From assembly GCF_013488225.1 (NCBI RefSeq), contig NZ_CP041238.1:3435501-3499500 (forward strand): a stretch of 64,000 bases of DNA, read 5' to 3'. Below, in pieces: positions 6,403-41,446 of this stretch (within the stretch, counting starts at the first letter, position 1; the number at the start of each line of letters is the position of its first letter). Position numbers and translations under genes: made by a program. The DNA is from Sinorhizobium mexicanum (GTDB lineage: Bacteria > Pseudomonadota > Alphaproteobacteria > Rhizobiales > Rhizobiaceae). The notes below the pieces were generated by a model that was not told the origin of the DNA, made no database searches, and worked only from the letters and a program-made list of their open reading frames with translations.

Positions 6403-6428
6403 GTATTTTATAGTCGACATGCGTATAC
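6403..6428. promoter_or_regulatory. Putative GntR/FCD operator, site 1
   Basis: Three hexamers start every 10 bp: GTATTT (6403), GTCGAC (6413), GTATAC (6423). It lies in the 289-bp divergent spacer between the two SDR genes. It has the same spacing as the sites at 19139, 27107 and 35570, all of which have a central GTCGAC or GTCTAC. Confidence 0.6.
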
Positions 6429-6622
6429 AATCAACATCCATTTTGCTAGCGTCGCGGAAATCGCCGCAGCAGTAGCGTGATCGCCGGCGCAGTGTTGTGA
6501 TGCGGCTGATAGGCTCCCAGGTTTGAGCAGCAACGTCATGAACATGCCGAAACCTGTTCTGCCCGAACGATGACGCGACCACACCTTCAATTGAAGAACA
6601 GACCGAGAGAAAGGAATATCCA

Positions 6623-7405
6623 ATGGAAATTCGGCTTGACGGGCGAACAGCGGTCATCACCGGCGGCAGCAAAGGGCTTGGATTGGCAATGGCAAAACGT
6701 TTTGCCGAGTCTGGCGCCGAGGTCGCAATTCTCGCCAGAGGCAAACCGGCGCTCGACGAAGCGGTGTCGTCGATACGCAGTGGAACGAAGACCCGGATCG
6801 AGGGTTTCGTTTGCGACGTTGCCCGACCTCAGGACACCACCGACGCCTATGAGCGCCTCATGACGGCCTTCGGCAAGATCGATATCCTGGTCAACAATGC
6901 GGGCCAGTCGCGCCTCTCCACCTTCGAGAACATCACAGACGAGATGTGGCAGGAGGATATCGAACAGAAGCTGATGGGCGCGATCCGCATGACCCGCCAT
7001 GTCTGGCCGCAGATGAAGGAAAGACGCTGGGGGCGGGTCATCAACGTCCTCTCCATCAACGCCAAGCAGCAGCGTGCCGGGGGTGCACCGACCACGGTCA
7101 CACGTGCGGCAGGCCTGGCGCTAACGAAGGTACTGGCCGGCGAAGGCGCGCCTCACAACGTTCTCGTCAATGCGCTGATGGTCGGGTCTATCATCAGCGA
7201 CCAGATCGCTCGCCGCGCCAAAGCCCGGAACGATGGAGTAACCTTGGAACAAATGATCGCGGATGTGGGCAAAGAAATTCCCCTCGGACGCATGGGCACG
7301 GCCGACGAATTCGCCAATGTTGCCTGCTTTCTTGCCTCGGAGGCTGCCTCTTACGTTACCGGCGCGGCGCTGCCGGTGGATGGCGGCAAAGCGGCCTTTA
7401 TTTAG
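6623..7405 (+). CDS. Divergent SDR-fold protein lacking the catalytic Tyr/Lys
   Basis: 260-residue short-chain dehydrogenase fold with an intact cofactor loop (TGGSKGLG, residues about 13-20) and NNAG near 91. At the YxxxK position it reads TTVTR: aligning the following LTK helix with classical SDRs puts Thr where Tyr should be and Arg where Lys should be. The preceding serine (LSINAK) remains. Either it uses a different mechanism or it is not a dehydrogenase. The start at 6623 has GAAAGGA 7 nt upstream. It is a single-gene rightward unit divergent from the SDR/PrpF operon, ending in a rhizobial inverted repeat before the convergent cupin gene. Confidence 0.85.
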
Positions 7406-7457
7406 AGCGGGATGAGAAAAAGTGTGCGCGGTTTTCCACCCGCATCCCGCGTCTCAA
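7404..7457. repeat. Rhizobial intergenic palindromic repeat
   Basis: An imperfect inverted repeat in the spacer between two convergent genes. GAGCGGGATG at the left is answered by GCATCCCGC at the right, around an AAAAAGTGTG...GGTTTTCC core. I recognise this layout as one widely scattered between rhizobial genes. It may also serve as a bidirectional terminator here. Confidence 0.55.
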
Positions 7458-7502
7458 CTTAGATCGCGGTGATCGAAGACGGACTGCGCATCATCGGCGA
7501 CG

Positions 7503-7925
7503 CTACGCGGCTCCATTGCCGGCATGCTCGGCGGAGATGGGATGGGTTTCGCCAGTGGTGATCAGCGTGCGCGTCGCCTCGACGGAGGCATATGTCCAGA
7601 AGATCCTTGTCAAATCCGTTTCGGACGCATTGAGAAAGCGATGCGGGACGCCACCTGGAATGAATGTCGTGTCATGACGGCCGAGGCGATATTGCCGGCC
7701 GTCGATTTCAGCGATGCATTCCCCCTCCAGCACGAGGACGCTTTCCTCGCAATTGTGGGAGTGAAGGGGGATGGCCCCGCCCGGCTTGAATTCTGTGATG
7801 CCGTTTAACATGGAAGTCGAACCACAGGCTTTCGTCACCAGAGGGATCGTCGACGCACCGTTGCCGCGCTCCACCCATTGAAGTTCCGCCGGCCGCAGGA
7901 CCATTCCGGTGCTACCATCTTTCAT
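7503..7925 (-). CDS. Small cupin-domain protein
   Basis: 140 residues forming one cupin barrel. The metal-binding motif 1 is HSHNCEE (HxHxxxxE-like, residues about 55-62), with motif 2 around PGGVPHRF near 92. Such small cupins act as sugar- or acid-isomerases, dioxygenases or ligand sensors; which one applies here is not visible. Its ATG overlaps the stop of the upstream NHL gene by 4 bp, so translation is coupled and the two products probably act on linked steps. It is the last gene of the leftward operon that starts at the VOC gene (12404). Confidence 0.82.
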   Translation of the reverse strand: MKDGSTGMVLRPAELQWVERGNGASTIPLVTKACGSTSMLNGITEFKPGGAIPLHSHNCEESVLVLEGECIAEIDGRQYRLGRHDTTFIPGGVPHRFLNASETDLTRIFWTYASVEATRTLITTGETHPISAEHAGNGAA

Positions 7926-8938
7926 TCGAAGAGGCCCCGAGCTTCGGCCGCCTCTCCCCGCCCCGACGCCTCAACTCCTGAAATCCGCGTCAGCCTGTGC
8001 ATGCGGTGCAGGTTATCCGGCAGCGGCTCGCCAGGAAACAGCGATGGCCAGGCCCTGGTGCTGACTTCGCCGACATAGAGATTGCCGCGGGAATCGACTG
8101 CGAGCGAATGCGGCGAGAGAAATTGTCCGGGATTACAGGGGCCCGTCGGAAGATCGCCGAAACGGGCGAGGACCTTTCCATCATTGGTGGTAACGCTGAT
8201 GCGCGGACCGAGATTCGGGTTCTTGCGATTGACGTTCATGTAAGGGCCGATCTCGCCGACATAGCAGATCGGACATTTTCCTGCACTGATCTGCAGGGCA
8301 CTGGGCCTATGCAGATTGTTGATCTGCGTCTCGTATCTGCCATTGCCGTCGAAGATCTGGATACGATGGTTTTCCCGGTCGGCGACATAGACCCAGCCGT
8401 CGGCGTCGCAGCAGATATTGTGGGGAAAGTTGAATTGGCCGGCATCGATGCCCGGAGCACCCCAGGAGAGTATCGGCTTGCCTTCGGGGGAATATTTATG
8501 CACCCGGGCATTGCCGTACCCGTCGGATACATAGAAATCGGCCTCCGGCGAAACCGCCGTATGCGTGCATCGGTGAAACGGTATCCCCGACATGTAAGGA
8601 GACGGTTTGCCCGGCGTGCCGAGCGTCAGCAGCACCTTTCCGTCAAGCGTGCATTTGCGCACGGTATGATCCCCATCGTCCGTGCAGTATATGCAATCGT
8701 CGGGACCGATATGCAGGCCGTGCGGATTGCTGAAGACGCCTTGCCCCCAGGTGTCGAGGAATTCGCCTTCGATATCGACCACGATCATCGGATTAGGACC
8801 GCGGTTGAAAAGGTACACTCGATCCTGTCGGTCGACGGCAAGTGCCGCGACATCGCCCATGACGAGACCCGCCGGGAGCTTCACCCACTGTTCCTCGACC
8901 CGATAGATAAAATCACCGCTGCCAAGAATGACGCTCAT
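7922..8938 (-). CDS. NHL-repeat six-bladed beta-propeller protein
   Basis: 338-residue NHL-type beta-propeller without a signal peptide or membrane segment. Recurrent blades carry the pattern GxxxxPHxI/L...DxxGxxYVxDxxNxRIQ (for example DGWVYVADRENHRIQIF). Similar propellers are annotated as peptidylglycine lyase-like or lactonase-like; hydrolysis of a lactone is a guess. A close paralog lies at 34564-35523, and both share the stretch GDHTVRKCTLDGKVLL and the CTHTA block. The ATG at 8938 was preferred over the GTG at 8950 because GAGAGGTGG lies 8 nt before it. Sits between an HpcH/HpaI aldolase and the cupin in one operon. Confidence 0.84.
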   Translation of the reverse strand: MSVILGSGDFIYRVEEQWVKLPAGLVMGDVAALAVDRQDRVYLFNRGPNPMIVVDIEGEFLDTWGQGVFSNPHGLHIGPDDCIYCTDDGDHTVRKCTLDGKVLLTLGTPGKPSPYMSGIPFHRCTHTAVSPEADFYVSDGYGNARVHKYSPEGKPILSWGAPGIDAGQFNFPHNICCDADGWVYVADRENHRIQIFDGNGRYETQINNLHRPSALQISAGKCPICYVGEIGPYMNVNRKNPNLGPRISVTTNDGKVLARFGDLPTGPCNPGQFLSPHSLAVDSRGNLYVGEVSTRAWPSLFPGEPLPDNLHRMHRLTRISGVEASGRGEAAEARGLFE

Positions 8939-8993
8939 CTGTTGTTCCACCTCTCAGAGGAAATCTGTTCGAGCCCGACGTTCCGCCTCCGGA

Positions 8994-9767: not shown

Positions 9768-9800
9768 ACCCGATCCCCTGAATTTTTGACTATTGTCCGG

Positions 9801-9831
9801 GGAAGCCGTTGCAACGCCTCGGCTTCCTTTT
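9801..9831. repeat. Inverted repeat between dehydrogenase and aldolase genes
   Basis: A perfect 8-bp stem (GGAAGCCG/CGGCTTCC) with an 11-nt loop, followed by TTTT only in the plus orientation, opposite to the flanking genes. On the leftward mRNA it would be a plain intercistronic hairpin, not a terminator. Confidence 0.4.
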
Positions 9832-12014: not shown

Positions 12015-12404
12015 TTATTTCGGTTGCATGAGTTCGATCCGGATGCCGTCGGGCGTCTCGACGAAGGCCACCATCGCGCTGCCCACCCCCGGCCGCGGTC
12101 CTTCGATCAGCCGCGCACCCATCGCCTGAAGACGCTCGACGTGCGCGACGACGTCGGCCGTATCGATACCGATATGCTCGATACCGAGATGAACCCCGGT
12201 CGCTCCGTCGTGGAGCACCTCTCCGTCTCTCTCCCCGGAGAAGAACACGCGCATCCCGCCGTCCTCGGTAAGGCAGCGAACGAACCGGTCTCCGGTGCTG
12301 CGCTGTTCATCGGTCAGGACCTGAAAATTGAAAGCCTGCACGAACCAGTCGGCGGATGCCTTCGGATCGCGTGATTTCAGATGAAGATGATTGATCCTGA
12401 ACAT
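12015..12404 (-). CDS. VOC (glyoxalase/dioxygenase) superfamily protein
   Basis: 129-residue single-unit vicinal-oxygen-chelate protein. The fold's paired beta-alpha-beta-beta-beta modules can be followed: INHLHLKSRDP (metal His near 6-8), VHLGIEHIGI in the middle and GIRIELMQ at the end (metal Glu). Family members are glyoxalases, epimerases or dioxygenases acting on metal-chelated substrates, and the specific reaction is not evident. The start at 12404 has AGGGAG upstream. It is the first gene of a six-gene leftward operon (VOC, TctC, dehydrogenase, aldolase, NHL, cupin), with the phased operator 22 bp upstream. Confidence 0.82.
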   Translation of the reverse strand: MFRINHLHLKSRDPKASADWFVQAFNFQVLTDEQRSTGDRFVRCLTEDGGMRVFFSGERDGEVLHDGATGVHLGIEHIGIDTADVVAHVERLQAMGARLIEGPRPGVGSAMVAFVETPDGIRIELMQPK

Positions 12405-12425: not shown

Positions 12426-12461
12426 GCATGCTGTTGTATACAAACAAATACTTGCATATTC
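12426..12461. promoter_or_regulatory. Putative GntR/FCD operator, site 2
   Basis: Four hexamers at exact 10-bp steps: GCATGC (12426), GTATAC (12436), AAATAC (12446), ATATTC (12456). The central TTGTATACAA is the best match. It lies directly upstream of the VOC-led operon. Confidence 0.6.
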
Positions 12462-12506: not shown

Positions 12507-14003
12507 TCAGATTCGCCGGAGCGGCATCGTCCAGTTCAATACCGCTGCCACGGCCGCCATCCCGGCAATGGCCAGAAAGGCGGCGCGGAACGACTGAGCG
12601 AATTCGGCCTGTATGGCCTTCGCCCTCTCCGCCGGGAGATCGTGGAGCGCGGCCATGCCATCCTGCAGCACGTGACCGAACAACCGGCCGGCTTCCGGGT
12701 CCGTGCCGGAGAGCATCGAGAAGAGCACGGCAGCCGTGAATGCCGTGCCGAGCGCCGCTCCCATCGAGCGCGAATACTGCACTGAGGCCGCGCCCGCGCC
12801 GATCTTCGCCTGGCCTGCGGCGCTCTGCACCGTGACCTGCACGACGCTCATGACCGTTCCCATGAACAGGGCCATCAGCCCGAGCGAGGTCGACAGCTGG
12901 AGGGGGCCGAAATCCGAGACGAAGAAGGCTATCAGCACAAGTCCGGTCGTTGCGAATACAAGCCCCCATGACGGCAGGATCGCGGTCCTTCCCGTCCGGC
13001 TGACGATCTGCCCGGTGATCAAGGAGCCGATGCCGATACCCACAGTCATCGGAGCGATGAGAAGGCCAATTTCGGCGGCGGAGGCTCCATGCACCACGCG
13101 CAGCTGGATCGGCACGAAGGTGAGCAGCGAAACCAGAATGCCGCCATGACAGGCTGCCACGGCATTGGCGCGCCAGATTGCGGGGTGCCGGAAAAGATCG
13201 ACGGGCAGAAGCGGCGCGGCCACGCGATGCTCGACGGCGACGAGCAGAGAGATCGAAACCATCGCGACGGCAAGCAGCGCCAGGATCGCCGGTATTTCGC
13301 TGGGCTCGAAGCTCTGGACACGATCGAGAAGGAGCAGCATGGAGACAACGAAACAGGCAAACAGGAGCAGACCGTAGTAGTCGAATTTCATCGCGCGGTT
13401 GTTTGCGGAGCGCTTCGGCAGCCGACTGATGAGCCAGAACGCCAAAAGCGAGACTGGCACGGAAAACAGGAAGACGGATCGCCATCCGAAATTTTCCGTC
13501 AAAATTCCGCCGAGGACAGGCCCGAGCGCATTGGACGTGACGCCGACCGAAGCAAGATAGCCCTGATATCTCGCCCTTTCGCGCGGTTCGACGGTTTCTC
13601 CGATCAGGGCCTGCGAAAGCGCCATCAGTCCTCCGCCGCCAAGTCCCTGAAGAACGCGTCCAGCCACCAGCATCGCCAGATTCTGGGAGAGCAGGCAGAT
13701 GATCGAGGAAGACATGAAGATAGTTAGCGCGCACAGGAGTAGTATCCTGCGACCGAAGAGATCTCCGAGCCGACCGTAGACGGGCGCTGCGATGGTCGCG
13801 GCGATCAAATAGCCGATCACGACCAGCGAGACCTGCTCGACGGACCCGATTGAGCCGGCGATTGCGGGCAAGGCCGCTGCCACGATCGATTGGTCGGACA
13901 GCGCCAGAAACATCGGAAGCGCAACTTTGGGAAAGACGTAGAGGAAACTCCTTGGCGACGCCTGTCTGCCATCTACGCCTTCGGAAGAATGGTCAGGGCT
14001 CAC
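12507..14003 (-). CDS. MFS transporter, DHA2 (14-TM) drug/metabolite efflux family
   Basis: 498-residue major facilitator protein with the roughly 14 hydrophobic segments of the DHA2 family. The MFS signature GRLGDLFGRRILL lies near residues 77-90 between helices 2 and 3, and motif C-like GPVLGGILTENFGWRSVF near 160. It probably exports a toxic substrate, intermediate or aromatic compound by proton antiport. Starts with GTG at 14003 with no strong ribosome-binding site. It lies downstream of the GntR regulator gene in the same direction, with its own phased site at 14058-14083, so it is likely under that regulator. Confidence 0.87.
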   Translation of the reverse strand: MSPDHSSEGVDGRQASPRSFLYVFPKVALPMFLALSDQSIVAAALPAIAGSIGSVEQVSLVVIGYLIAATIAAPVYGRLGDLFGRRILLLCALTIFMSSSIICLLSQNLAMLVAGRVLQGLGGGGLMALSQALIGETVEPRERARYQGYLASVGVTSNALGPVLGGILTENFGWRSVFLFSVPVSLLAFWLISRLPKRSANNRAMKFDYYGLLLFACFVVSMLLLLDRVQSFEPSEIPAILALLAVAMVSISLLVAVEHRVAAPLLPVDLFRHPAIWRANAVAACHGGILVSLLTFVPIQLRVVHGASAAEIGLLIAPMTVGIGIGSLITGQIVSRTGRTAILPSWGLVFATTGLVLIAFFVSDFGPLQLSTSLGLMALFMGTVMSVVQVTVQSAAGQAKIGAGAASVQYSRSMGAALGTAFTAAVLFSMLSGTDPEAGRLFGHVLQDGMAALHDLPAERAKAIQAEFAQSFRAAFLAIAGMAAVAAVLNWTMPLRRI

Positions 14004-14057: not shown

Positions 14058-14083
14058 GTATCCCAATGTATAACGCTGTATAC
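14058..14083. promoter_or_regulatory. Putative GntR/FCD operator, site 3
   Basis: GTATCC (14058), GTATAA (14068) and GTATAC (14078) at 10-bp steps, in the spacer between the GntR gene stop and the MFS gene start, about 55 bp upstream of the latter. Confidence 0.55.
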
Positions 14084-14156: not shown

Positions 14157-14852
14157 CTAACGGTTCATCAGCATCCTCAGACGCGAACGCTGGGCTTCCC
14201 GGATGTGCAGGCGGCTCGCTGCCTCGGCCCCTTCGCTATCGCGGCTCTCGATCGCCGAAACGATTGCCTTGTGCTCCCGAGAGGCAGAGCCATGGCGCTC
14301 CGGCAACGAGAAAGTGGTGTTCTGAAGCAGCGACAGCGCATCTTCGAGATTGTTTAATGCTTCATGCATGTAGCGGTTGCGGGCCGCTTCGTAGATTGTG
14401 CGATGCAGGGCATGGTTGATGCGAGCAAGCTCGGCGGCGTCCCCTTCGGCGGTATCGAATTCGTTGAGCAACTCGCGCATCATGGCGATCTCCGCAGGCA
14501 GCGCATGCTGAGCCGCAAAGCGCGCTGCCGCGCCTTCCAGCACCTCGCGCATCGCGTAGAGCTCCATCACCTGCTGGGTGTTGAGCTCTACGACGACGAT
14601 GCCTCGACCGGGAGCCACCTCCACGAGACGGCGTGCCTGAAGCTGTTGGAGCGCTTCGCGAACAGGCGTACGGCTGACGCCGAGCGATTGGGCAACATCC
14701 TCTTCGCGAATGCGATCTCCCGGGCGGATTCGGCCGGCACGAATGCCCTCAAGCAGAGCCTTGTAGACGAGTTCGCCTCTGGGACCGCCGCGCGAAGACA
14801 GCATGGAACCGGGTATCTCCTTGTCTGCCAGGTTATCCGGGTCCGTCGCCAT
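14157..14852 (-). CDS. GntR family transcriptional regulator, FCD (FadR-type) subfamily
   Basis: 231-residue regulator. The N-terminal winged helix spans residues about 25-90, with the recognition-helix block EEDVAQSLGVSRTPVREAL. The C-terminal all-helical FCD ligand domain spans about 100-225; its metal/ligand residues are suggested by the conserved acidic position in MREVLEG and the histidines in NHALHRTIYEAA, EHKAIVSAIESRD and LHIREA. FCD regulators bind organic acids and usually repress catabolic genes until the inducer is present. It is the only GntR gene in the window, and phased GTATAC sites flank it (14908 upstream, 14058 downstream), which fits autoregulation plus control of the cluster. 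The ATG at 14852 has only a weak ribosome-binding site; Met17 is an alternative. Confidence 0.92.
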   Translation of the reverse strand: MATDPDNLADKEIPGSMLSSRGGPRGELVYKALLEGIRAGRIRPGDRIREEDVAQSLGVSRTPVREALQQLQARRLVEVAPGRGIVVVELNTQQVMELYAMREVLEGAAARFAAQHALPAEIAMMRELLNEFDTAEGDAAELARINHALHRTIYEAARNRYMHEALNNLEDALSLLQNTTFSLPERHGSASREHKAIVSAIESRDSEGAEAASRLHIREAQRSRLRMLMNR

Positions 14853-14907
14853 TCAGTCTTTGCCTCGCTGTCTTGAATCATGTCCCGAAAAAGTACCGCA
14901 CCTTTTC

Positions 14908-14923
14908 GTAGACTACTGTATAC
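14908..14923. promoter_or_regulatory. Putative GntR/FCD operator, site 4 (autoregulatory)
   Basis: GTAGAC (14908) and GTATAC (14918), 10 bp apart, about 55 bp upstream of the GntR regulator start. Only two good hexamers are visible. Confidence 0.5.
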
Positions 14924-16663: not shown

Positions 16664-16664
16664 T

Positions 16665-17491: not shown

Positions 17492-19006
17492 TCAGGAAGC
17501 CTTCGACCGGGCTTCAGTGCGGGCGAGGGCCGACAGCCCGGCGCTTTTGCCGGCCGTGCGGCCGAATACCGCGCCGGCCATAAGGCCCGTACCGCCCGGA
17601 TAGTTGAAGTAGAACAGGCCTCCCACCAATTCTCCTGCCGCAAAGAGATTGGGCATGAGCGCGCCTTCGGTGTCAACGACCTGAGCACCCGTGTCTACAC
17701 GCAGGCCGCCGAATGTGAACGTCACACCGCAGGTTACCTGGAAGGCTACATAGGGCGGTGTATCCAGTACATTTGCCCAGTTCGACTTGTTGATCTTCAG
17801 TCCCTGCGTGCTGCGGCCGTCCTTGATATTGGGATTGAACGGCATGTCGCGCCGGATCGAAGCGTTGTAGGCCTCGACTTCCCGAACGAAGTTCGCGGCA
17901 TCGACACCTTCCAGCTGCCTCGCCAGATCTTCGATCGTATCTGCCTGTACCTTGGTGATCTGCTTGATACGATACTCGTCGCGCAGCAGATGCACTACCT
18001 TCTGGTCGAAGATCTGCCAGGCAAATTGCTTCGGCTGGTTGAGAATGACGCGGCCGTATTTCGCGTATGTATAGTTGCGGAAATCGGCACCCTCGTCGAC
18101 GAAGCGCTCACCGTTCGCATTGATCATGATGCCGAATGGATAGCTGTGCTTCTGGAAGCCATCGCCGACGGCGAGGTCGCCAAAGGGCGGCGCATTGAAG
18201 TCCCAGCCGACAGCGTGACAACCAGACCAGTGGCCCCAGGGCATAGCCCCCGCATCGAGCGCCATACGGATGCCGTCGCCAGTGTTGAAGCGTGTGCCGC
18301 GCACCTTCGCAAGCTCCCAATTCTGACCGAGGTAACGGCTGCGCCATTCGGAATTTGCCTGAAAGCCGCCGCTAGCAAGGACGACGGATCCGGAACGCAG
18401 CTCCGTGGTGCGACCGTCGACGCGGGCGACGACACCGTGAATGCCGTCGTCATCAGAGATCAGCGACAGAGCGCGCGCATTGTGCCGCACCTCGATGCCG
18501 TCATGGGCCGCGCGCTTGTGCAAAGCCTCAACAAGCCCCGGCCCCCCACCCCAGGATTCCACTGTCATCCCGCCCCAAAACTTGAAGCGACCTTCAACCT
18601 TGAATGCCTGGCGTCCATAGATCGGCTGAAACCGCACACCCTTGGTTCGCATCCAGATCATCGTGTCCAGACTTTTGGTGACAAGCATTTCCGCCATGTC
18701 GGGGTCGGTGCGGTATTCGGTAATGCGACCCATGTCGTCGAAAAACTGGTCTTCGGTATAGGTGCCGAAATCGGTCCGCTCGATTTCTTCCTCGGTGAGA
18801 TCCGGCATCACCTTACGGAGGTCATCGATACCGGCATAGGCGAAGCGCATGCCGCCAGCCGTAAAGGCGCTATTGCCGCCGTGCTCCTCGAGCGGAGCCC
18901 TCTCAAGCACGAGTACAGAAGCGCCCGTTTCCCGCGCGGAGAGGGCTGCGCACATTGCGGCATTGCCCGCGCCAACGACGATAACATCATAATAAGGTTC
19001 AGACAT
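17492..19006 (-). CDS. tcuA: FAD-dependent tricarballylate dehydrogenase TcuA-like
   Basis: 504-residue flavoprotein of the fumarate-reductase/succinate-dehydrogenase flavoprotein family. The FAD motif VVGAGNAAMCAAL is at residues about 10-22, HGGNSAFTAGGMRF near 42-55, and GGTGLMAGAVFGRTAGK closes the FAD domain near 475. In Salmonella, TcuA oxidises tricarballylate to cis-aconitate and is reoxidised by the membrane Fe-S protein TcuB. No tcuB-like gene occurs in this window, so the electron acceptor and perhaps the substrate differ. TAGGAA lies before the ATG. First gene of the TcuA-RraA-ThDP operon, with the operator at 19048 about 40 bp upstream. Confidence 0.87.
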   Translation of the reverse strand: MSEPYYDVIVVGAGNAAMCAALSARETGASVLVLERAPLEEHGGNSAFTAGGMRFAYAGIDDLRKVMPDLTEEEIERTDFGTYTEDQFFDDMGRITEYRTDPDMAEMLVTKSLDTMIWMRTKGVRFQPIYGRQAFKVEGRFKFWGGMTVESWGGGPGLVEALHKRAAHDGIEVRHNARALSLISDDDGIHGVVARVDGRTTELRSGSVVLASGGFQANSEWRSRYLGQNWELAKVRGTRFNTGDGIRMALDAGAMPWGHWSGCHAVGWDFNAPPFGDLAVGDGFQKHSYPFGIMINANGERFVDEGADFRNYTYAKYGRVILNQPKQFAWQIFDQKVVHLLRDEYRIKQITKVQADTIEDLARQLEGVDAANFVREVEAYNASIRRDMPFNPNIKDGRSTQGLKINKSNWANVLDTPPYVAFQVTCGVTFTFGGLRVDTGAQVVDTEGALMPNLFAAGELVGGLFYFNYPGGTGLMAGAVFGRTAGKSAGLSALARTEARSKAS

Positions 19007-19047: not shown

Positions 19048-19063
19048 GTATACAAATGTATGC
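19048..19063. promoter_or_regulatory. Putative GntR/FCD operator, site 5
   Basis: GTATAC (19048) and GTATGC (19058), 10 bp apart, 42 bp upstream of the TcuA-like gene start. It lies on the leftward side of the 303-bp divergent spacer. Confidence 0.57.
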
Positions 19064-19138: not shown

Positions 19139-19164
19139 GTATACATTTGTCGACATAACTATAC
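19139..19164. promoter_or_regulatory. Putative GntR/FCD operator, site 6
   Basis: GTATAC (19139), GTCGAC (19149) and CTATAC (19159) at exact 10-bp steps. It lies on the rightward side of the TcuA/Ldh divergent spacer (19007-19309); apart from the two operators I see nothing else in that spacer. Confidence 0.6.
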
Positions 19165-19309
19165 GAGCACCACGCTCGTATTGCTAGCGCTTAGAGTCAT
19201 CATTGGGAGGAGACGTGATGAGGCTAACGGCAGCGCGGAATTCTTGGATTTCCGTTGGACACATATCGAGCAAAAACATCGGGATACCCCGCATCCATGG
19301 AGGGGCCTG

Positions 19310-20443
19310 ATGGTTGCCCCCTTTGAGCTTCATCGCCAACAGATCGAGCTTATCCTTATCGCATGGGGCATGCCGCAGGCTCACGCAGAGCGCACAGCAG
19401 AAGTCCTGTCCTGGGCCGATCTTCATGGCGTTGAGAGCCACGGCATTTCCATGCTTGTCGAATATGACATGCGGTTCCGTGACGGCCGCCTGAAGATGGA
19501 CGCTGATTTCAAGGTCATGCGAGAAAGCCCGGTATCCGTCCTCATCGACGGTGACGGCGGGATGGGTCACGTGGCTTATGCAATGGCCGCGGAGGCAGCA
19601 ATCAGCAAGGCGAAGTCTGCCGGTATCGCGGTCGCCGCCGTCCGCAATTCCTCTCATTTCGGCGCCGTCGGCTATTTCACGAACCTCGCGGCGCGTGCGG
19701 GCCTGATCGGTATGGGCGCGACCAGTGCAGCTGGCATTCGTGTGGCGCCGACCGGAGGAGCGGAGGCGAAACTCGGCACCGATCCATGGTCTTTTGCCGC
19801 GCCAAGCATGGACGACAATCCGTTCCTCTTGGATATGGCGACGACAACAGTCGCTTACGGAAAGATCCGCAACAAGATGAACGAAGGCCTGCCGATGCCT
19901 GTCGGCTGGGGTTCGGACAACGCAGGCAGGGCGTCCACCGAGCCGCTGGACGTGACGCGGCGCGGCGGTTTCATGTCGCCTCTCGGAGGCACGCCTGAGG
20001 GCAGCAGCTACAAGGGATATGGCCTGTCGATGATGGTCAACATCCTCTCCTCCTGCCTGAGTGGAGCAACGCTGATCACCGATCCCATGCACACGAAGAA
20101 GCCTCAGGGCTTCGATATTGGCCATTTCTATCTGGCCATTGATCCCCGGCTCTTCCGTGATGATGGCGCGTTTGAAAGCGATGTGGCGACATTCTGCAAC
20201 GCGCTCCGGGCGACAAAACGCGTGGAGTCCGAGGTTCCGGTCATGGTCGCCGGCGATCCGCAATGGGCAATGGCCGAGCAGCGCATGCGTGAGGGAATTC
20301 CGATTGGAAAAGGGCTGCGTGCAAAGCTGATCCAGGTCGCTGAGGCCGCAAAGGTCGAGTGGCTTCTGGACAAGAATGAAAGCACTTCATCCGAAACAAA
20401 GCCTCCGCAATTCGACGCCTCGTCAACTGCGGCGACATATTAG
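19310..20443 (+). CDS. Ldh2/MdhA-family malate/L-lactate-type dehydrogenase
   Basis: 377-residue NAD(P)-dependent dehydrogenase of the Ldh2 family (malate, ureidoglycolate, sulfolactate and delta1-piperidine-2-carboxylate enzymes), unrelated to Rossmann lactate dehydrogenases. Seen: HGVESHGISML near 40-50, the NSSHFGAVGYF catalytic-His block near 117 and GGTPEGSSYKGYGLSMMV near 225. The ATG at 19310 has GGAGGGG 5 nt upstream; the open frame back to 19181 is probably leader. It would oxidise a 2-hydroxyacid to a 2-oxoacid, a natural feed for the ThDP decarboxylase pair encoded downstream. Confidence 0.88.
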   Translation: MVAPFELHRQQIELILIAWGMPQAHAERTAEVLSWADLHGVESHGISMLVEYDMRFRDGRLKMDADFKVMRESPVSVLIDGDGGMGHVAYAMAAEAAISKAKSAGIAVAAVRNSSHFGAVGYFTNLAARAGLIGMGATSAAGIRVAPTGGAEAKLGTDPWSFAAPSMDDNPFLLDMATTTVAYGKIRNKMNEGLPMPVGWGSDNAGRASTEPLDVTRRGGFMSPLGGTPEGSSYKGYGLSMMVNILSSCLSGATLITDPMHTKKPQGFDIGHFYLAIDPRLFRDDGAFESDVATFCNALRATKRVESEVPVMVAGDPQWAMAEQRMREGIPIGKGLRAKLIQVAEAAKVEWLLDKNESTSSETKPPQFDASSTAATY

Positions 20444-20483: not shown

Positions 20484-20509
20484 GGATACTTTCGTCGACG
20501 CGAGAATAC
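20484..20509. promoter_or_regulatory. Putative GntR/FCD operator, site 7
   Basis: GGATAC (20484), GTCGAC (20494) and GAATAC (20504) at 10-bp steps, in the 157-bp spacer between the Ldh2 gene and tctB. It would give the TctB-TctA permease genes their own regulated promoter. Confidence 0.5.
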
Positions 20510-21065: not shown

Positions 21066-22598
21066 ATGTTCAACGACATCTTTAGCGGTCTGCTCGCGCT
21101 TTTCGATTTCTGGACGATCGTCGCCATGATCGCAGGTACAAGCCTCGGTATTTGCCTTGGGGCCTTACCCGGAATCGGAGCTACACTCGGCATCGCCCTC
21201 GCCATTCCGTTCACCTATGGAATGGGCCCTCTGCCGGCTCTTGCACTGCTTGCCGGCATCCATAACGGCTCTTCGCAAGGCGGCGCCATTCCGGCCATCC
21301 TGCTGCGCATCCCGGGCACGCCTGGTTCCATCGTGACCTCCTGGGACGGCTACCCGCTGGCCAAGCAGGGAAAGGCGGGCGGCGCCATCAATCTTTCGGC
21401 CATCTCCTGCGCGGTTGGGGGCGCGCTTTCGGCTCTGTCGTTGATATTGCTGGCACCGCCGCTCGCAAGGATCGCCCTGGCATTCGGTCCGCCGGAGATC
21501 TTCTGGGTCAACGTCTTCGGTATCGCGACCGTTGCAGCGCTGCTTGGCGACGATCTGCTCAAGGGGCTGCTGGCGGCATGTTTCGGCCTGCTGATCGGTA
21601 CGGTCGGCCTAGACAACGTGTCCGGCCATGAGCGATTCACGTTTGGCATGCTCGATCTCGTCAACGGCATTTCCACGATCGCCGTCATGGTCGGCATGTT
21701 TTCGTTCCCGCCGGCCTGGAACCTGGCAGTCGGCGCCCGCAAACAAGCTCTTGAGACCAGACCCGTCGAACGCTTCAAAATCGTATCCGAGCGTATCTGG
21801 ACCTTCGCCGGCGTATGGCGCGCATGGGCTGTGGCCTCGTTCATCGGGATCATCAATGGCATCTTGCCGGGATCGGCGATCGCATCCTTCATTGCCTATA
21901 ATGAAGCGAAACGGGTCTCCAAGACGCCGGAGAAGTTCGGCAAGGGTTCGATCGAGGGGTTGGCTGCGGCCGAATGTGTCAACGCGGCCGACAATGCCTC
22001 GGCGCTGATCCCGACGCTGACGCTCGGCGTTCCCGGCAGCAACGTCGCGGCCCTGATCCTCGGCGCTTTGCTGATCCAGGGCTTCCAGCCGGGTCCGCAG
22101 CTGTTCCGCGATGCGCCAACCATCGTTTATGGGTATTCCTGGGCGCTTATGTTCACGGCGCTGCTGCTGATCCCGCTCGGTGGCTCAGTCGCCAGCCGCG
22201 TCTTTGCGAATGTGCTGCGCATTCCGACGCTGATCCTGTTGCCGCTGATCATCGTGATCGCCTGTGCCGGCTGCTTCGCGTCTCAGAACTCGATGTTTGA
22301 CGTTTATATGGCGGCACTGTTCGGAATAGTCGGACTCGCAATGATCCGCTTCGACTTTCCGATCGCGCCCGTCATCATCGGCGTGGTCTTGGGGGCCAAG
22401 GCTGAGTTCAACCTGCGTGTCTCCCTCATGATGTCCGCAGGCGACTACTCCATCCTGTACAACCGCCCGATCACCATCGTCCTGATCGTCTTGACCGCAC
22501 TGATCATCTTTTTCCCGCTCTATCGGGTCTACAAAGATTGGCAGCATCGGCGCAAGAACGGCACGCCGGGGCCGGCTACGACGGATACGATGAACTGA
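21066..22598 (+). CDS. TTT transporter large membrane subunit, TctA family
   Basis: 510-residue integral membrane protein with about 11-12 helices. Family landmarks: GICLGALPGIGATLG near 20-35 and the internal-repeat counterpart GIINGILPGSAIASF near 265, the GxxPGxxxx motifs proposed to form the substrate path in TctA proteins, and GGAIPAILLRIPGTPGS near 75. It is the translocating channel of the TTT system. The ATG at 21066 is favoured over the GTG at 21057 by the AGGTG 7 nt before it. A strong terminator follows at 22614, so the permease transcript ends here. Confidence 0.92.
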   Translation: MFNDIFSGLLALFDFWTIVAMIAGTSLGICLGALPGIGATLGIALAIPFTYGMGPLPALALLAGIHNGSSQGGAIPAILLRIPGTPGSIVTSWDGYPLAKQGKAGGAINLSAISCAVGGALSALSLILLAPPLARIALAFGPPEIFWVNVFGIATVAALLGDDLLKGLLAACFGLLIGTVGLDNVSGHERFTFGMLDLVNGISTIAVMVGMFSFPPAWNLAVGARKQALETRPVERFKIVSERIWTFAGVWRAWAVASFIGIINGILPGSAIASFIAYNEAKRVSKTPEKFGKGSIEGLAAAECVNAADNASALIPTLTLGVPGSNVAALILGALLIQGFQPGPQLFRDAPTIVYGYSWALMFTALLLIPLGGSVASRVFANVLRIPTLILLPLIIVIACAGCFASQNSMFDVYMAALFGIVGLAMIRFDFPIAPVIIGVVLGAKAEFNLRVSLMMSAGDYSILYNRPITIVLIVLTALIIFFPLYRVYKDWQHRRKNGTPGPATTDTMN

Positions 22599-22613
22599 GC
22601 TCCCATGACATCG

Positions 22614-22647
22614 GGAAAGGCCGGCGCGACCCTGGCCTTTCCGTTTT
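22614..22647 (+). terminator. Rho-independent terminator after TctA
   Basis: Perfect 9-bp stem GGAAAGGCC/GGCCTTTCC with an 11-nt loop, then G and TTTT. It begins 16 bp after the TctA stop and separates the permease transcript from the ThDP decarboxylase genes. Confidence 0.75.
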
Positions 22648-22783
22648 CCCTCGGGCGACAAGAACGGTCGTCAAGCCTAAAACCCATTGTTTCTGGCGGA
22701 ATGACGTGCATCCGACCGTATGCATCCGTTGCTGGATACGCGATGGGCGTTCCTGTAAGTCTTGTAATGGCAAGGAGATGCCA

Positions 22784-23317
22784 ATGAATCCCGCAGATCG
22801 TCCTTGGCACGAAAGCATTCGCGACGTGCTGAAAGACAATAATGTCCGGCTGGTCACCTACGTGCCTGACAACGTGCTCAACCCTCTGATCAAGGCACTG
22901 CATGCCGACCCGTTCTTCACCACCTTTTGCTGCACGCGCGAGGAGGAGGCAGTCGGCATTGCGACCGGAGCATGGATGGGGGGCATGCTCGGTGTTGTGC
23001 TGATGCAGACCAGTGGCTTCGCAACACTTCCCAACGTGCTCGCCTCGCTTGCCGTGCCTTATCAGATCCCGCTGCTGATGATCATTTCGGAGCGCGGTAC
23101 GCTCGGCGAATTCAACCTGGGTCAGGCCATGGTCTGCCGGACGATGCGTCCGGCCCTGGATTCCATGGGCATCGAGCACCACACGATCCGCCGGCCGGAC
23201 GAGGTCGAGTTCGTCGTCGGCCGCACCATCAGTCAGGCGGTTTCCACCCAGGCGCCGGCCGCACTCATCCTCAACCCATTCCTGACGGGCGGCAAAGTCG
23301 AGAAGAAGGAAAAGTGA
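22784..23317 (+). CDS. Split ThDP decarboxylase, alpha (Pyr-domain) subunit
   Basis: 177-residue protein consisting only of a ThDP Pyr domain, comparable to the alpha subunit of sulfopyruvate decarboxylase and the N-terminal part of phosphonopyruvate decarboxylase. The catalytic Glu that activates the cofactor is in CCTREEEAVGIATGAW (about residue 45). It must dimerise with the PP-domain subunit encoded 2 bp downstream. ATG at 22784 with AAGGAG 6 nt upstream; ATG 22778 is an alternative. The 136-bp spacer behind the terminator should hold its promoter; only a weak GTATGC-type hexamer (22718) is visible there. A second alpha/beta pair occurs at 35707-36829. Confidence 0.85.
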   Translation: MNPADRPWHESIRDVLKDNNVRLVTYVPDNVLNPLIKALHADPFFTTFCCTREEEAVGIATGAWMGGMLGVVLMQTSGFATLPNVLASLAVPYQIPLLMIISERGTLGEFNLGQAMVCRTMRPALDSMGIEHHTIRRPDEVEFVVGRTISQAVSTQAPAALILNPFLTGGKVEKKEK

Positions 23318-23319
23318 TA

Positions 23320-23937
23320 ATGACCGAGGGATCACAACACAACGAGCGCAGACGGATGAGCCGCGCCGACCTGACGAAGCGGATCGTCGGCAAGCTGAAG
23401 AACGAGGAAGCCGTCGTCGGCGGCATCGGCTTCACCAATTTTGAGCTCTGGGGAGCAGGACCGCGCCCGCAGAATTTCTACATGCTCGGCAGCATGGGCC
23501 TCGCCTTCCCGATCGCGCTTGGCGTGGCGCTTGCCCAGCCGGACCGCCGGGTCATAGGACTTGAGGGTGACGGCTCGCTACTCATGCAGGTCGGCGCGCT
23601 TGGTACGATCGCCAGCTTGCAGCCGAAGAATCTGGTCATGGTCGTCTGGGACAACGGTACCTATCAGATCACCGGCGGTCAGCCGGCTACCACCGGGACC
23701 GTGGTCGATCTTGTCGGACTTGCCCAGGCATCTGGCCTCGAAAAGGCATTCTGGGCTAAGGACGAGCCGCATTTCGATACGCTCATCGACCGCGCGTTGA
23801 AGGAGGAGGGTCCTTTCTTCATCGCCGCCAAAATCGACGGCGCGAGGCCGGAGGCAACCACCCATCGCGATCCGGTGCAGATCCGCGAGCGTTTCATGCG
23901 TGGATTGGGAGTCCGGTCCGATCCGGCCGTGGCATGA
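23320..23937 (+). CDS. Split ThDP decarboxylase, beta (PP-domain) subunit
   Basis: 205-residue ThDP PP domain. The cofactor-binding motif GDG-x25-DN is near residues 83-112 (EGDGSLLMQV ... WDNGTYQ), preceded by GSMGLAFPIALG. With the alpha subunit it should decarboxylate a 3-substituted pyruvate to an aldehyde, as in sulfopyruvate and phosphonopyruvate decarboxylases. AGAAGGA overlaps the alpha stop region and the ATG follows the TGA by 2 nt, so the subunits are made together. Convergent with the flavoprotein gene at 23975. Confidence 0.86.
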   Translation: MTEGSQHNERRRMSRADLTKRIVGKLKNEEAVVGGIGFTNFELWGAGPRPQNFYMLGSMGLAFPIALGVALAQPDRRVIGLEGDGSLLMQVGALGTIASLQPKNLVMVVWDNGTYQITGGQPATTGTVVDLVGLAQASGLEKAFWAKDEPHFDTLIDRALKEEGPFFIAAKIDGARPEATTHRDPVQIRERFMRGLGVRSDPAVA

Positions 23938-27106: not shown

Positions 27107-27132
27107 GTATTTCTTTGTCGACTTTTGTATGC
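27107..27132. promoter_or_regulatory. Putative GntR/FCD operator, site 8
   Basis: GTATTT (27107), GTCGAC (27117) and GTATGC (27127) at 10-bp steps, in the 160-bp divergent spacer between the DUF1932-type gene and the second HpcH/HpaI aldolase. Same arrangement as site 1. Confidence 0.6.
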
Positions 27133-28057: not shown

Positions 28058-28894
28058 GCTCCAGACTCAATTGGTCCACCAGATGATGATAGCGGCGATG
28101 TGGACGGCAGCCTGGAAGTTTGTGGCGAGCTTGTCGTAGCGGGTGGCGATCCGCCGCCAATCCTTGAGACGGCAGAACATCCGCTCGATGACGTTGCGCT
28201 GGCGATAGGCCGTTGCATCGAAGGGATGGCGGCGCTTTCTGGTCGGGTTGTTGGGAATGACCGGAATGGTGCCGCGTGCGGTCAGATACTGGCGCAGGGC
28301 ATCGCTGTCGTAAGCGGTGTCGGCGGCGAGGAAATAGGCGGGTGGCAGGTGCTGGAGTAACGGCACGGCGGCGCGCACATCGCCCATCTGCCCCGGCGAG
28401 ATCTGCAGGCCGAGCGGCCGGCCGCGCCCGTCTACGACGGCGTGGATTTTCGTCGTCCGGCCGCCGCGGGAGCGACCAATCGCCTGCGTCTGCGCCCCCC
28501 TTTTCCACCAGCGGCGGAGCGATGGACCTTCGCGGTGGTACTGTCGATCATCTGCATATCGCATGGACTGGCCGCGACCAGGGCCGAAAACAGCTTCTGC
28601 CACAGGCCGCGGCCGGCCCAGCGATGAAAGCGGTTGTAAATCGTGGTTGGCGGGCCATAGACGGCCGGGCAATCCTGCCAACGGCAGCCGACACGCAACA
28701 CATGGACAATGCCGCTGATGACGCGGCGGTCATCGACCCGGCGCGCACCGGGCCGGTTCTTCGGCAGCAGCGGTTCGATCACGGACCATTGCTGATCACT
28801 TAGCCAGAATTCGCTTCCCATGCCTCACCTCCGCTATTTCGGAATAGAATCATGGAAATCAAACGCCATCAATAGGCTGATTGAGTTTTAACCC
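28058..28894 (-). mobile_element. IS5-family insertion sequence
   Basis: About 837 bp bounded by imperfect terminal inverted repeats (left GGCTCCAGACTCAAT, right end read inward GGGTTAAAACTCAAT; 10 of 15 match) and a TAG triplet on each side that I take as the 3-bp target duplication. The transposase runs leftward in two overlapping frames. Removing the element and one TAG rejoins the neighbouring enolase-family gene with a TAA stop, so the insertion landed in that stop codon. Confidence 0.78.
28067..28821 (-). CDS. IS5-family transposase, two frames joined by -1 frameshift
   Basis: The N-terminal frame (28821 down to about 28500; full open frame ends 28432) carries the DUF4096-like start FWLSDQQWSVIEPLLPKN and the first catalytic Asp (MIDSTTAKVH). 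The second frame (down to 28067) carries the second Asp (LAADTAYDSDALR) and the catalytic Glu in a textbook YREK signature, Y-x2-R-x3-E-x6-K. The frames overlap at an A4G6 run on the coding strand near 28500-28512, and the second lies -1 relative to the first, as in IS5 elements that use programmed frameshifting. Joined length is about 250 residues, normal for the group, so the element may still be active. Confidence 0.85.
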
Positions 28895-32248: not shown

Positions 32249-32274
32249 GTGTACAATGATATGCATTGATATGC
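32249..32274. promoter_or_regulatory. Putative GntR/FCD operator, site 9
   Basis: GTGTAC (32249), ATATGC (32259) and ATATGC (32269) at 10-bp steps, nearer the leftward TctC promoter in the 234-bp divergent spacer. Confidence 0.5.
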
Positions 32275-32281: not shown

Positions 32282-32297
32282 GTATACGACGATATAC
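32282..32297. promoter_or_regulatory. Putative GntR/FCD operator, site 10
   Basis: GTATAC (32282) and ATATAC (32292), 10 bp apart, 70 bp upstream of the rightward MR-type gene. It is 13 bp out of step with site 9, so the two groups may serve the two divergent promoters separately. Confidence 0.5.
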
Positions 32298-35569: not shown

Positions 35570-35595
35570 GTATCCTACAGTCTACTGCTGTATAC
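35570..35595. promoter_or_regulatory. Putative GntR/FCD operator, site 11
   Basis: GTATCC (35570), GTCTAC (35580) and GTATAC (35590) at exact 10-bp steps, in the 183-bp divergent spacer between the second NHL gene and the second ThDP alpha gene. Confidence 0.6.
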
Positions 35596-35706
35596 AATCA
35601 ATCTCCAATTCGTTATTGTCGCGGTGTCAGGGCAAAATTTCCGGTCATCGGCTGATTGACGAGGACTGGAAGCCCAAGGACTCTGACAGGGAGAGACGAG
35701 CAAGAG

Positions 35707-36234
35707 ATGTCGGATGAACAGCAGGGCGCGGCCTGGCCGCACACGATCTACCGGCTTTTGAGAGAAGCCAAGGTAAGGCAGATTTCCTATGTCCCGGATG
35801 GCGGGCACAAGGAGCTGATCCAGCATTGCACGGACGACGCGGACATGCGGACGATATCGTTGACTACCGAGCAGGACGGCATCGGTTTGGCTTCAGGCGC
35901 CTGGTTGGGCGGAGTCCGCAGCGCGATGCTGATGCAGTCGAGCGGCGTAGGCAACTGCATCAATGCGTTGAGCCTCATCAAGAACTGCCAGTTCCCCTTC
36001 CTGACCTTCGTCACCATGCGAGGCGATTTCGGCGAGGCGAATAACTGGCAAATGGCCATGGGACAGGCGACGCCCGTGGTTCTCGGCGCGATGGGTATGG
36101 TTTGCTTGCGAATCGAGCATGCCGAAGAGGTCGAGGAAACGGTGAGCGCAGCCTTGCGCATGTCTTTCCTCGCGTCACAATCGATCGCCGTCCTGTTGTC
36201 CCAGCGCCTGGTCGGCGCCAAGATCTTCAAATGA
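35707..36234 (+). CDS. Split ThDP decarboxylase, alpha (Pyr-domain) subunit (second)
   Basis: 175-residue Pyr-domain-only protein, paralog of 22784. The catalytic Glu is in LTTEQDGIGLASGAWLGG (about residue 50), replacing the TREEEAVGIATGAWMGG of the first copy. Partner beta subunit starts 8 bp after its stop. ATG at 35707 was chosen over an in-frame start at 35656 because the family similarity begins here; the ribosome-binding site is only moderate. First gene of an alpha-beta-aldehyde dehydrogenase operon, which makes the predicted product an aldehyde that is then oxidised. Confidence 0.84.
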   Translation: MSDEQQGAAWPHTIYRLLREAKVRQISYVPDGGHKELIQHCTDDADMRTISLTTEQDGIGLASGAWLGGVRSAMLMQSSGVGNCINALSLIKNCQFPFLTFVTMRGDFGEANNWQMAMGQATPVVLGAMGMVCLRIEHAEEVEETVSAALRMSFLASQSIAVLLSQRLVGAKIFK

Positions 36235-36241
36235 GTCTGCC

Positions 36242-36829
36242 ATGACGAACACGAATACGCTCAGCCGCCGCGCCGCGGTAAAACATATCCTCGCCGATCG
36301 GGGCGATGCCTTGACCGTATCGAGCCTCGGCGGTCCCTCCTACGACGTGGCAGCCGTACAGGTGGATTTCGACGGGGATTTTCCGCTCGGCGGCGCCATG
36401 GGCCAGGCGACGATGGTCGGCCTCGGGCTTGCCCTGTCGCAACCCAGGCGTCGCGTCATCATCTTTGCCGGCGACGGCGAGATGTTGATGAGCCTCGGCT
36501 CGCTCGCCACCATTGGTGCCGAAAAGCCGGACAACCTCGCTATCGTCGTCATTGACAACGAGCATTATGCAGAGACCGGCATGCAACGCACCCATACCGG
36601 TCGCGGCGTCGATATTGCAGCTGTCGCGGCGGCGTGCGGTTTCGCAACCGTACGCACCGTAAGAAGCCTGGCGGATCTGGAGGAAGCCACTCCTCTCATC
36701 CATTCGGCTCCGGGCCCGGTCTTTGTCACGCTCAAGGTCAGCAATGAGGTGGGCGAGCTTTTCCCCCGTAATCGCGACGGCGTTTGGCAGAAAGGCCAGT
36801 TTCGGCGGGCGCTTTTGGGCCATGTCTGA
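36242..36829 (+). CDS. Split ThDP decarboxylase, beta (PP-domain) subunit (second)
   Basis: 195-residue PP domain with the cofactor motif GDGEML...VVIDNEHYAETG near residues 79-112 and the preceding GGAMGQATMVGLGLAL helix. With the alpha subunit it should form an alpha2-beta2 decarboxylase of a 2-oxoacid. The sequence around the DN motif (DNEHYAETGMQ versus DNGTYQITGGQ in the first pair) differs, suggesting different substrates for the two enzymes. It is followed after 86 bp by the aldehyde dehydrogenase gene. Confidence 0.86.
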   Translation: MTNTNTLSRRAAVKHILADRGDALTVSSLGGPSYDVAAVQVDFDGDFPLGGAMGQATMVGLGLALSQPRRRVIIFAGDGEMLMSLGSLATIGAEKPDNLAIVVIDNEHYAETGMQRTHTGRGVDIAAVAAACGFATVRTVRSLADLEEATPLIHSAPGPVFVTLKVSNEVGELFPRNRDGVWQKGQFRRALLGHV

Positions 36830-38352: not shown

Positions 38353-38374
38353 TCCTCCGATCGTCCCGCTGACC

Positions 38375-38403
38375 GGACCTGCCGATCGTCGGCGGGTCCT
38401 TTT
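38375..38403 (+). terminator. Rho-independent terminator after aldehyde dehydrogenase
   Basis: 11-bp stem (GGACCTGCCGA with TCGGCGGGTCC, one G-U pair), 3-nt loop TCG, then TTTT. It ends the ThDP alpha-beta-aldehyde dehydrogenase operon and faces the convergent DMT gene. Confidence 0.78.
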
Positions 38404-38427
38404 CGTTCACGAAATGCCGCATAAAAC

Positions 38428-39405: not shown

Positions 39406-39450
39406 GTTGCTACTCCGAATACTCGTGCCGAAGCGGCTCGCAACTTCACC

Positions 39451-40407: not shown

Positions 40408-40425
40408 GGTGTACTTCCCTAGTTT

Positions 40426-40451
40426 GTATACATTGGTATATTTTTGTCATC
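40426..40451. promoter_or_regulatory. Putative GntR/FCD operator, site 12
   Basis: GTATAC (40426), GTATAT (40436) and GTCATC (40446) at exact 10-bp steps, in the 117-bp divergent spacer between the TctC gene and the third HpcH/HpaI aldolase, 18 bp from the TctC start. Confidence 0.6.
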
Positions 40452-40524
40452 CTACGAACACCACCAGCCTTTGGCAAGAGGCAATCGCAGCAGCGCGCAA
40501 GCGGCCGCACAAGGAGACGGAAAC

Positions 40525-41328
40525 ATGCAGGGACCTCATATCGAAAACGCCGTATTGCAACGGATGCGCAACGACGAAGTGGCGCTCGGCCTTGTCGTGC
40601 GCTTGGCGCGATCAGGCGAAATTGCCGCGATCGCCAAGGCGAGCGGGCACGACTTTCTCTTCCTCGACACGCAGCATGCGCTGTTTTCGGTGGAAACGAT
40701 CGGGCATATCATCCAGGCAGCGCTCGGTTGCGGCATCGCCACCATCGTGCGGGTTCCACGCTACGACGATCCCGACATAGCGAAATTCCTGGATGCCGGC
40801 GCATCCGGAATCGCCGTCGCCGATGTAGCGACCGCCGAACAGGCACGAAAAGTGGTCGAGGCCTGCCGTTTTCCCCCGCTCGGCAAGCGCTCGGTGCAGA
40901 GTACATATTCCGCCACGCGCTACGGGTCTTATCCAATCGACGCGCTGCTGCAGGAACTCGAGCGCAAAACGCTCGTCGCCTGCATGATCGAAACACGCGA
41001 AGGCGTCGCCAATCTTGACGAGATCTGCAGCGTGGAAGGCGTCGACCTCATTCATCTCGGCTGCAGCGATCTTCTGGCCGATATGGGCAGGCCTGGCGCT
41101 TTCGACGATCCCGAACTGCGCGCGATCACGGATCGCCTGATCTCTGTCTGCCGGGAGAAGAAGAAATTTGCAGGCCTCGGCGGCGATCGGGACATTGCGC
41201 GGCTGAGCGCCTTCATCCAGAAGGGCCTGCGCTTCCACACCACGCAGACCGATGTCAGCTATCTCATCGAAGCAGCGTCCCGCCGCGCCGGCATGCTGCG
41301 CGAGGTGCTTCCCGGCGGGCGGGGATAG
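40525..41328 (+). CDS. HpcH/HpaI family aldolase (third copy)
   Basis: 267-residue class II aldolase. Landmarks: DFLFLDTQHALFS near 42-54, metal Glu in MIETREGVAN near 154 and LGCSDLLADMG near 183, where the family's usual Asn before Asp is Ser (CSD versus SND/AND in the other two copies). That change near the metal/pyruvate site may alter specificity. AAGGAG lies 8 nt before the ATG at 40525. It precedes another TctC gene that has its own operator. Confidence 0.86.
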   Translation: MQGPHIENAVLQRMRNDEVALGLVVRLARSGEIAAIAKASGHDFLFLDTQHALFSVETIGHIIQAALGCGIATIVRVPRYDDPDIAKFLDAGASGIAVADVATAEQARKVVEACRFPPLGKRSVQSTYSATRYGSYPIDALLQELERKTLVACMIETREGVANLDEICSVEGVDLIHLGCSDLLADMGRPGAFDDPELRAITDRLISVCREKKKFAGLGGDRDIARLSAFIQKGLRFHTTQTDVSYLIEAASRRAGMLREVLPGGRG

Positions 41329-41420
41329 CAATCTCCGGCAAAGGGTTCGCGCCGGTTGCATGTATTCCTCCGCGGCGACTTCAATTCTTTCATTCCTCGA
41401 ATCGCCTCTGGACTCGCCTT

Positions 41421-41446
41421 GTTTACCATTGTATACAAATGTATTC
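41421..41446. promoter_or_regulatory. Putative GntR/FCD operator, site 13
   Basis: GTTTAC (41421), GTATAC (41431) and GTATTC (41441) at exact 10-bp steps, 21 bp upstream of the last TctC gene. Confidence 0.6.

Follow-up and report, generated by a model that had tools for sequence, protein, structure and literature searches.

A large cluster of carboxylate genes in Sinorhizobium mexicanum raises the question of which protein reads the short palindromes, related to GTATAC, that recur in exact 10-bp steps in its intergenic spacers. The cluster lies in a stretch of 64,000 nucleotides (assembly GCF_013488225.1, contig NZ_CP041238.1, positions 3,435,501 to 3,499,500), which is called the window below and whose first letter is position 1. 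The rows of palindromes, or arrays, quite likely serve as operators for an FCD regulator whose gene lies inside the cluster, at 14157..14852 on the reverse strand. One dimer would occupy each palindrome, the dimers would form same-face rows over the promoters, and a carboxylate would release the repression of the cluster and of the regulator gene itself.

A first-pass annotation of the window had listed thirteen sites with units in 10-bp steps, and GTATAC-like units with this step are present at all 13 positions. The array score, which measures the match to three GTATAC units in 10-bp steps (maximum 18), was scanned over the 64 kb. It reaches at least 13 at 15 positions, some of which are one array shifted by one unit, and at least 14 at 11, every one of them a listed site. 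Forty first-order Markov sequences gave a mean of 0.125 positions with a score of at least 13 (maximum 2) and none of at least 14. No position between 42.5 and 64 kb, where the annotation had noticed no site, reaches 13. When three-unit sums of the generic unit GT[A/C][G/T]AC were compared at periods from 6 to 30 bp, period 10 yielded six sums of at least 16 (at 6403, 14058, 19139, 20484, 35570 and 41421); the only other period to yield one was 6, at one place outside 5.6-42.4 kb. Column counts from 12 sites and their reverse complements show a unit centre of the AT or CG type; the information content reaches 1.75 bits within the units and does not exceed 0.31 bit at the four intervening positions. 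Relative to a central unit picked by the analyst, a second in-phase unit (at least four of six matches) is found in all 13 sites, another on the opposite side in 8 and one at +20 in 3. As a correction to the repeat numbers in the annotation, most arrays comprise two or three units, and four are present at 12426 and 40426. Eight sites (6403, 19048, 19139, 27107, 32249, 32282, 35570 and 40426) lie in divergent spacers as judged from the open reading frames.

The phased pattern is confined to the cluster. A loose version, three GTNNAC units with two mismatches, was rejected, for it occurs at 61 places in the whole genome versus 121 in the reversed control; GTNNAC alone is therefore unspecific. 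The signal is carried by the AT/CG cores together with the 10-bp phase. The strict pattern, (GTATAC N4)x3 with up to 3 mismatches, was likewise run with a reversed control. It occurs at four places in the 7.14-Mb genome, all of them in this cluster (reversed control, 1). In 32 other genomes of the genus it occurs at three places in two genomes, and the reversed control gives 1-3 places per genome. A window-trained model, R1, run over the whole genome returned 14 rows at 11 distinct places, all in the cluster. R1 had been trained on 12 of the listed sites, did not match 19048, and scored 150 of the 210 candidates from the first look, so it provides no more than supporting evidence for silence elsewhere. 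A second, sequence-only model, R2, was trained on 26 sites at 21 loci in other genomes; its training set excluded near-duplicates, the closely related Chelativorans locus and any locus lacking an array. Over the window, with filters off, R2 gave 21 rows at E<=10, several of them weak and all at listed sites, and recovered 11 of the 13. At E<=1 over 33 genomes it matched the own genome alone, at two sites, both in the cluster.

A match to the regulator at E<=1e-30 is found in 19 of 150 relatives, namely the own genome and 18 genomes of other genera, and no orthologue was found at this threshold in the 32 same-genus genomes. This bears on the idea that another host DNA-binding protein, for example another FCD paralogue, reads the arrays. 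The genome does contain 31 further FCD-like matches at E<=1e-4, but the 32 genomes lacking this regulator are nearly free of arrays, and none of the 11 paralogue loci inspected out of the 31, each about 3.5 kb long, shows an array. A different reader is accordingly given very little credence.

Outside the genus, arrays accompany orthologues of the regulator. They are found near FCD orthologues in Chelativorans (84% identity), in two Roseibium, on two Hoeflea contigs and in five Paraburkholderia. Over the nine whole genomes to which these loci belong (about 67 Mb) the strict pattern occurs at 11 places, representing 10 arrays, in seven genomes, and all 11 are at the regulator locus; one lies about 13 kb from the regulator gene, still inside the conserved cluster. 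The reversed control over the same nine genomes gave 5 places. Of 18 loci from further relatives, 14 score at least 13. A score of at least 14 is reached at 19 of the 30 loci with a regulator identity of at least 40% versus 1 of 28 other FCD loci (L091, 36%), and a score of at least 13 at 23 of 30 versus 4 of 28, where each locus, up to 20 kb long, is represented by its highest score and 11 of the 28 others are stretches of only 3.5 kb. Mapped onto a tree of 59 regulators, the label "at least 13" requires 9 changes versus 19.9 after shuffling, and none of 500 shuffles was as low, with the caveat that near-copies inflate the clustering and some long branches are unsurely placed. The mean unit score 10 bp to either side of exact GTATAC anchors is 3.35-3.88 in five sets of loci, the window included, and 1.97 in a distant FCD set; the corresponding control elsewhere in the own genome had two anchors and is uninformative. 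Because the arrays are confined to the cluster and co-located with orthologues, comparative evidence argues strongly for a link between them and the regulator. It likewise favours the earlier proposal that the FCD regulator binds the arrays, controls itself and governs the cluster as one regulon, as arrays track its orthologues and keep to their loci.

Arrays might also be alike through duplication of spacers during cluster growth and not through selection on binding. Sites 6403, 35570 and 19139 seem, by eye, to share sequence beyond the array, and the 6403 array is almost identical to one at a junction between thiamine pyrophosphate (TPP) enzyme and NHL genes in Chelativorans. Loci of Paraburkholderia and Roseibium with a different gene content, however, show the same period, and spacer copying is considered highly improbable.

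The regulator has 231 residues and contains a GntR winged helix (66.9 bits) and an FCD domain (95 bits), both above the Pfam gathering scores. Its predicted structure has a mean predicted local distance difference test score (pLDDT) of 89, with residues 1-22 below 50, and an effector domain of six helices (92-116, 119-134, 139-156, 160-176, 186-202 and 206-229). Six helices characterise the effector domain of the VanR group and seven that of the FadR group (PMC7797058). With its two domains, the six modelled helices and a palindromic proposed operator with conserved GT..AC, the protein can be placed in the VanR group of FCD regulators. The closest solved relative by sequence is PmiR of Pseudomonas aeruginosa (7XP0/7XP1; best hit 7xp0, 1.3e-22; 32% identity), which ranks second by fold after 7u5q. 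The fold comparison also retrieved Atu1419 of Agrobacterium fabrum, a VanR-group FCD repressor (PDB 6ZA3 and others) that is 26-29% identical to the regulator, has a similar fold and shares its recognition helix, SRTPVREAL. Atu1419 binds the 10-bp palindrome ATGTATACAT, the G of which is read by Arg45; its site covers the -10 box, it represses itself, and its metal is held by Asn/His/His/His (PMC7797058).

Residues N146, H150, H194 and H216 of the regulator align with these ligands. In Paraburkholderia an N replaces H194, and the regulator of L091 lacks two ligands. PmiR, to go by the title of its paper, reportedly senses 2-methylisocitrate, a tricarboxylate. Atu1419 bound citrate fortuitously (PMC7797058), and DgoR requires metal for its sugar-acid ligand (PMC7674646). 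By analogy with these three proteins, the effector of the regulator is likely to be a carboxylate. In the proposed mechanism, the regulator would repress, rather than activate, the cluster and its own gene when inducer is absent, and a di- or tricarboxylate, either a substrate or an intermediate, would bind near the metal site of the FCD domain and cause release.

Several observations weigh against assigning the arrays to this regulator or against full occupancy of their units. Two of the nine orthologue genomes, both Paraburkholderia, lack the strict pattern. A score of 13 is not attained at seven of the 30 loci whose regulators are at least 40% identical (L026, L027, L028, L081, L089, L090 and L092), and it is attained at four of the other FCD loci (L032, L035, L039 and L091), of which L032 and L035 are AT-rich. 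The loci are partly non-independent, five of them being from Paraburkholderia. The helix SRTPVREAL also occurs in regulators without arrays (e.g. L054 and L090) and is not diagnostic. R2 missed 20484 and 32282, and its training sites were chosen by the same motif score, so that the model is motif-shaped, albeit with no knowledge of the window. Finally, occupancy of every unit is unsure because the outer units are often degenerate.

The last point leads to the question of how many dimers an array holds. Each GT[A/C][G/T]AC palindrome, best read as TTGTATACAA, would be the site of one dimer; this is the simplest reading because the palindrome within a unit is the canonical FCD site. VanR-group dimers such as Atu1419 bind palindromes of the kind seen in each unit, and the units fit the FadR-subfamily consensus NyGTM-N0-1-KACNy (PMC4494728). 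Two to four palindromes exactly one turn apart would set dimers side by side on one face of the DNA, over the core promoters, and cooperative binding with one dimer per turn is plausible. Alternatively, a single dimer might bind the central palindrome, the flanking units being weak auxiliary contacts or leftovers and not part of a cooperative row. The second and fifth bases of the outer units are indeed more degenerate than those of the central one, Atu1419 needs only single palindromes (PMC7797058), and AlkR has one footprinted site and two weak extra ones (PMC12042122). Against this stand the raised unit scores at 10 bp in the five locus sets, not seen in the distant FCD set, and the two or more in-phase units at each of the 13 window sites, and binding to the central palindrome alone is judged unlikely, if the most serious of the competing explanations.

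Known FCD operators differ from such rows. NanR of Escherichia coli, to which the annotation had compared the regulator, binds (GGTATA)3 as several dimers and needs a defined spacing (PMC8012715). The comparison is apt in that several dimers of an FCD regulator would share a short repeat operator. It fails in geometry, since the NanR repeats are non-palindromic with dimers about half a turn apart, whereas complete palindromes stand here at a full turn. Cooperativity of NanR moreover depends on a 32-residue extension (PMC8012715) that is not recognisable in this regulator, whose first 22 residues are modelled with low confidence. A search among the array-bearing regulators for a conserved extension like that of NanR found none; their N-terminal extensions vary in length and sequence. 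Atu1419 differs in having isolated palindromes 109-190 bp apart and a looping tetramer, and 10-bp rows are not described in the accessible text on it (PMC7797058). Operators of the FadR subfamily are described as single or paired sites and a few direct repeats, again with no rows of 10-bp palindromes described in the part of the source available (PMC4494728).

The arrays could instead serve DNA looping by Atu1419-like tetramers between two arrays, with 19048/19139, 32249/32282 and 14058/14908 as pairs. The Atu1419 tetramer has been seen to loop sites 190 bp apart (PMC7797058), and the 19048/19139 pair is retained in Chelativorans at 475936/476025. Most spacers of the window, however, hold a single array, and looping leaves the strict 10-bp period unexplained; it is regarded as rather improbable.

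The arrays would represent a kind of FCD operator not described before; no published FCD or GntR operator in 10-bp rows was recognised in the open-access literature. If dimers of the regulator do bind at every helical turn, their geometry would be unlike that reported for NanR and Atu1419. More generally, and with confidence falling somewhat short of even, it may be proposed that TcuA-associated FCD regulators of the VanR group in alpha- and betaproteobacteria form a clade with a distinct operator class, in which complete palindromes are spaced exactly 10 bp apart, the dimers on consecutive turns make up a short filament along one face, and operator and core promoter can coincide. Such coincidence could arise because a repeated TTGTATACAA row sets TTGTAT and TATACA 17 bp apart. 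This would provide a binding code for a regulator clade on which no study was found.

Two variants of the spacing were noted. In the Paraburkholderia arrays at 8337 of L021 and 16737 of L023, the outer units GAGTAC and GTACTC flank GTATAC and form an overall palindrome of 26 bp, whose GTAC cores lie 9 bp off its centre. The distant staphylococcal FCD homologues of L035, L036 and L037 have two GTATAC exactly 21 bp apart (9902 and 9923), a two-turn and not a one-turn spacing, some 50-80 bp upstream of the regulator.

The position of the arrays fits occlusion of RNA polymerase. Of 17 promoter directions, 14 have 19-77 bp between the end of the array and the gene start used, and three have 112-195 bp. 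A rough scan for sigma-70-like -10 elements found the best match overlapping the array in 13 of the 17; this overlap lends weak support, since the units resemble -10 boxes, several gene starts were guessed and the scoring weights were approximate.

Arrays precede nearly every apparent transcription unit, inferred from strand and spacing, from PrpF (4380) to TctC (42424). Both R1 and R2 matched them except where indicated. The array at 6403..6428 (GTATTT-GTCGAC-GTATAC) lies between a short-chain dehydrogenase and PrpF (-) and the short-chain dehydrogenase at 6623 (+). As PrpF (4380-5606) seems to be transcribed behind it, the region served by arrays probably starts at about 4.4 kb. The four-unit array at 12426..12461 is 22 bp upstream of a glyoxalase-like gene (12015-12404, -), beyond which it also precedes TctC, 2-hydroxyacid dehydrogenase, HpcH and NHL genes. 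An array at 14058..14083 precedes the gene of a major facilitator superfamily protein (12507-14003, -). The regulator gene has an array too, listed as 14908, which lies 46 bp upstream of the gene start and occupies 14898..14923, with a weak outer unit at 14898. A two-unit array at 19048..19063 (matched by R2, no genome match of R1) is 42 bp upstream of a TcuA-like gene (17492..19006, -), and three-unit arrays precede the Ldh_2 gene 19181-20443 (+) at 19139..19164 and TctB/TctA (+) at 20484..20509 (matched by R1). A possible short leader reading frame (about 19216-19330, +), noticed by eye, follows the 19139 array and precedes the conserved portion of the Ldh_2 protein, which matches Pfam from residue 52 onwards.

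Divergent spacers hold the remaining arrays but the last: 27107..27132 between a DUF1932 dehydrogenase (-) and an HpcH aldolase (+), a junction that also has an array in Chelativorans; 32249..32274 between TctC (-) and an enolase-superfamily gene (+), together with a second, two-unit array at 32282..32297 (missed by R2) that is 3 bp out of phase with it; 35570..35595 between NHL (-) and split TPP enzyme and aldehyde dehydrogenase genes (+); and 40426..40461, with two strong and two weak units, between TctC/EamA (-) and an HpcH aldolase (+). The best array, 41421..41446, is about 21 bp upstream of a TctC start chosen by the analyst (+). All of these would be bound by the regulator, and a regulon of about 38 kb is thereby outlined, the genes of which are predicted to belong to one carboxylate pathway. 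Their products comprise short-chain dehydrogenases, glyoxalase, TctC/TctB/TctA, 2-hydroxyacid dehydrogenases, HpcH/HpaI aldolases, split TPP enzymes, aldehyde dehydrogenase, enolase-superfamily proteins and major facilitator superfamily and EamA proteins.

In Chelativorans the same genes occur in a different order, at about 459-494 kb. Arrays are found there at the junctions DUF1932/HpcH, TctC/enolase, Ldh_2/TcuA (two), regulator/TctC and TPP/NHL, and upstream of another TctC; upstream of the regulator there is only a weak two-unit match. Confinement of the arrays to the cluster and the lack of an orthologue in the 32 same-genus genomes point to a probable horizontal acquisition of the cluster, arrays included. 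The rearranged cluster with its kept arrays, and the absence of the regulator within the genus, suggest a horizontally acquired regulon with its own regulatory sites. The cluster also contains a gene for a 204-residue DDE transposase (28067-28681, -), which is consistent with horizontal transfer.

In other genomes the neighbour that most consistently accompanies the regulator is a TcuA-like FAD dehydrogenase, relatives of which are encoded at 10 of 10 loci L016-L025, 0 of 3 loci L026-L028 and 15 of 18 loci L076-L093. The window's TcuA-like protein scores 602 bits against NF006130 (cut-off 369) and 274 bits against TIGR02485, below the cut-off of 372.55; at Hoeflea L020 a TcuA above both NCBIfam cut-offs is encoded next to TcuB. 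The founding role of the clade was therefore probably the control of the use of tricarballylate-like acids.

Two gene pairs for split TPP enzymes lie within 22538-23937 and 35656-36829 (+), and the product of 22927-23937 is similar to sulfopyruvate and phosphonopyruvate decarboxylases, with scores below the cut-offs of these families. The gene at 57813-63956 (-) encodes a protein of 2047 residues with DMFA2_C, DUF4082, He_PIG and cadherin-like domains. It contains a stretch of 300 nt four times (94-100% alike), and the pattern that these copies form recurs after 1854 nt. A CDC48-type double AAA ATPase, a type unusual in bacteria, is encoded at the left end of the window (32-2212, +).

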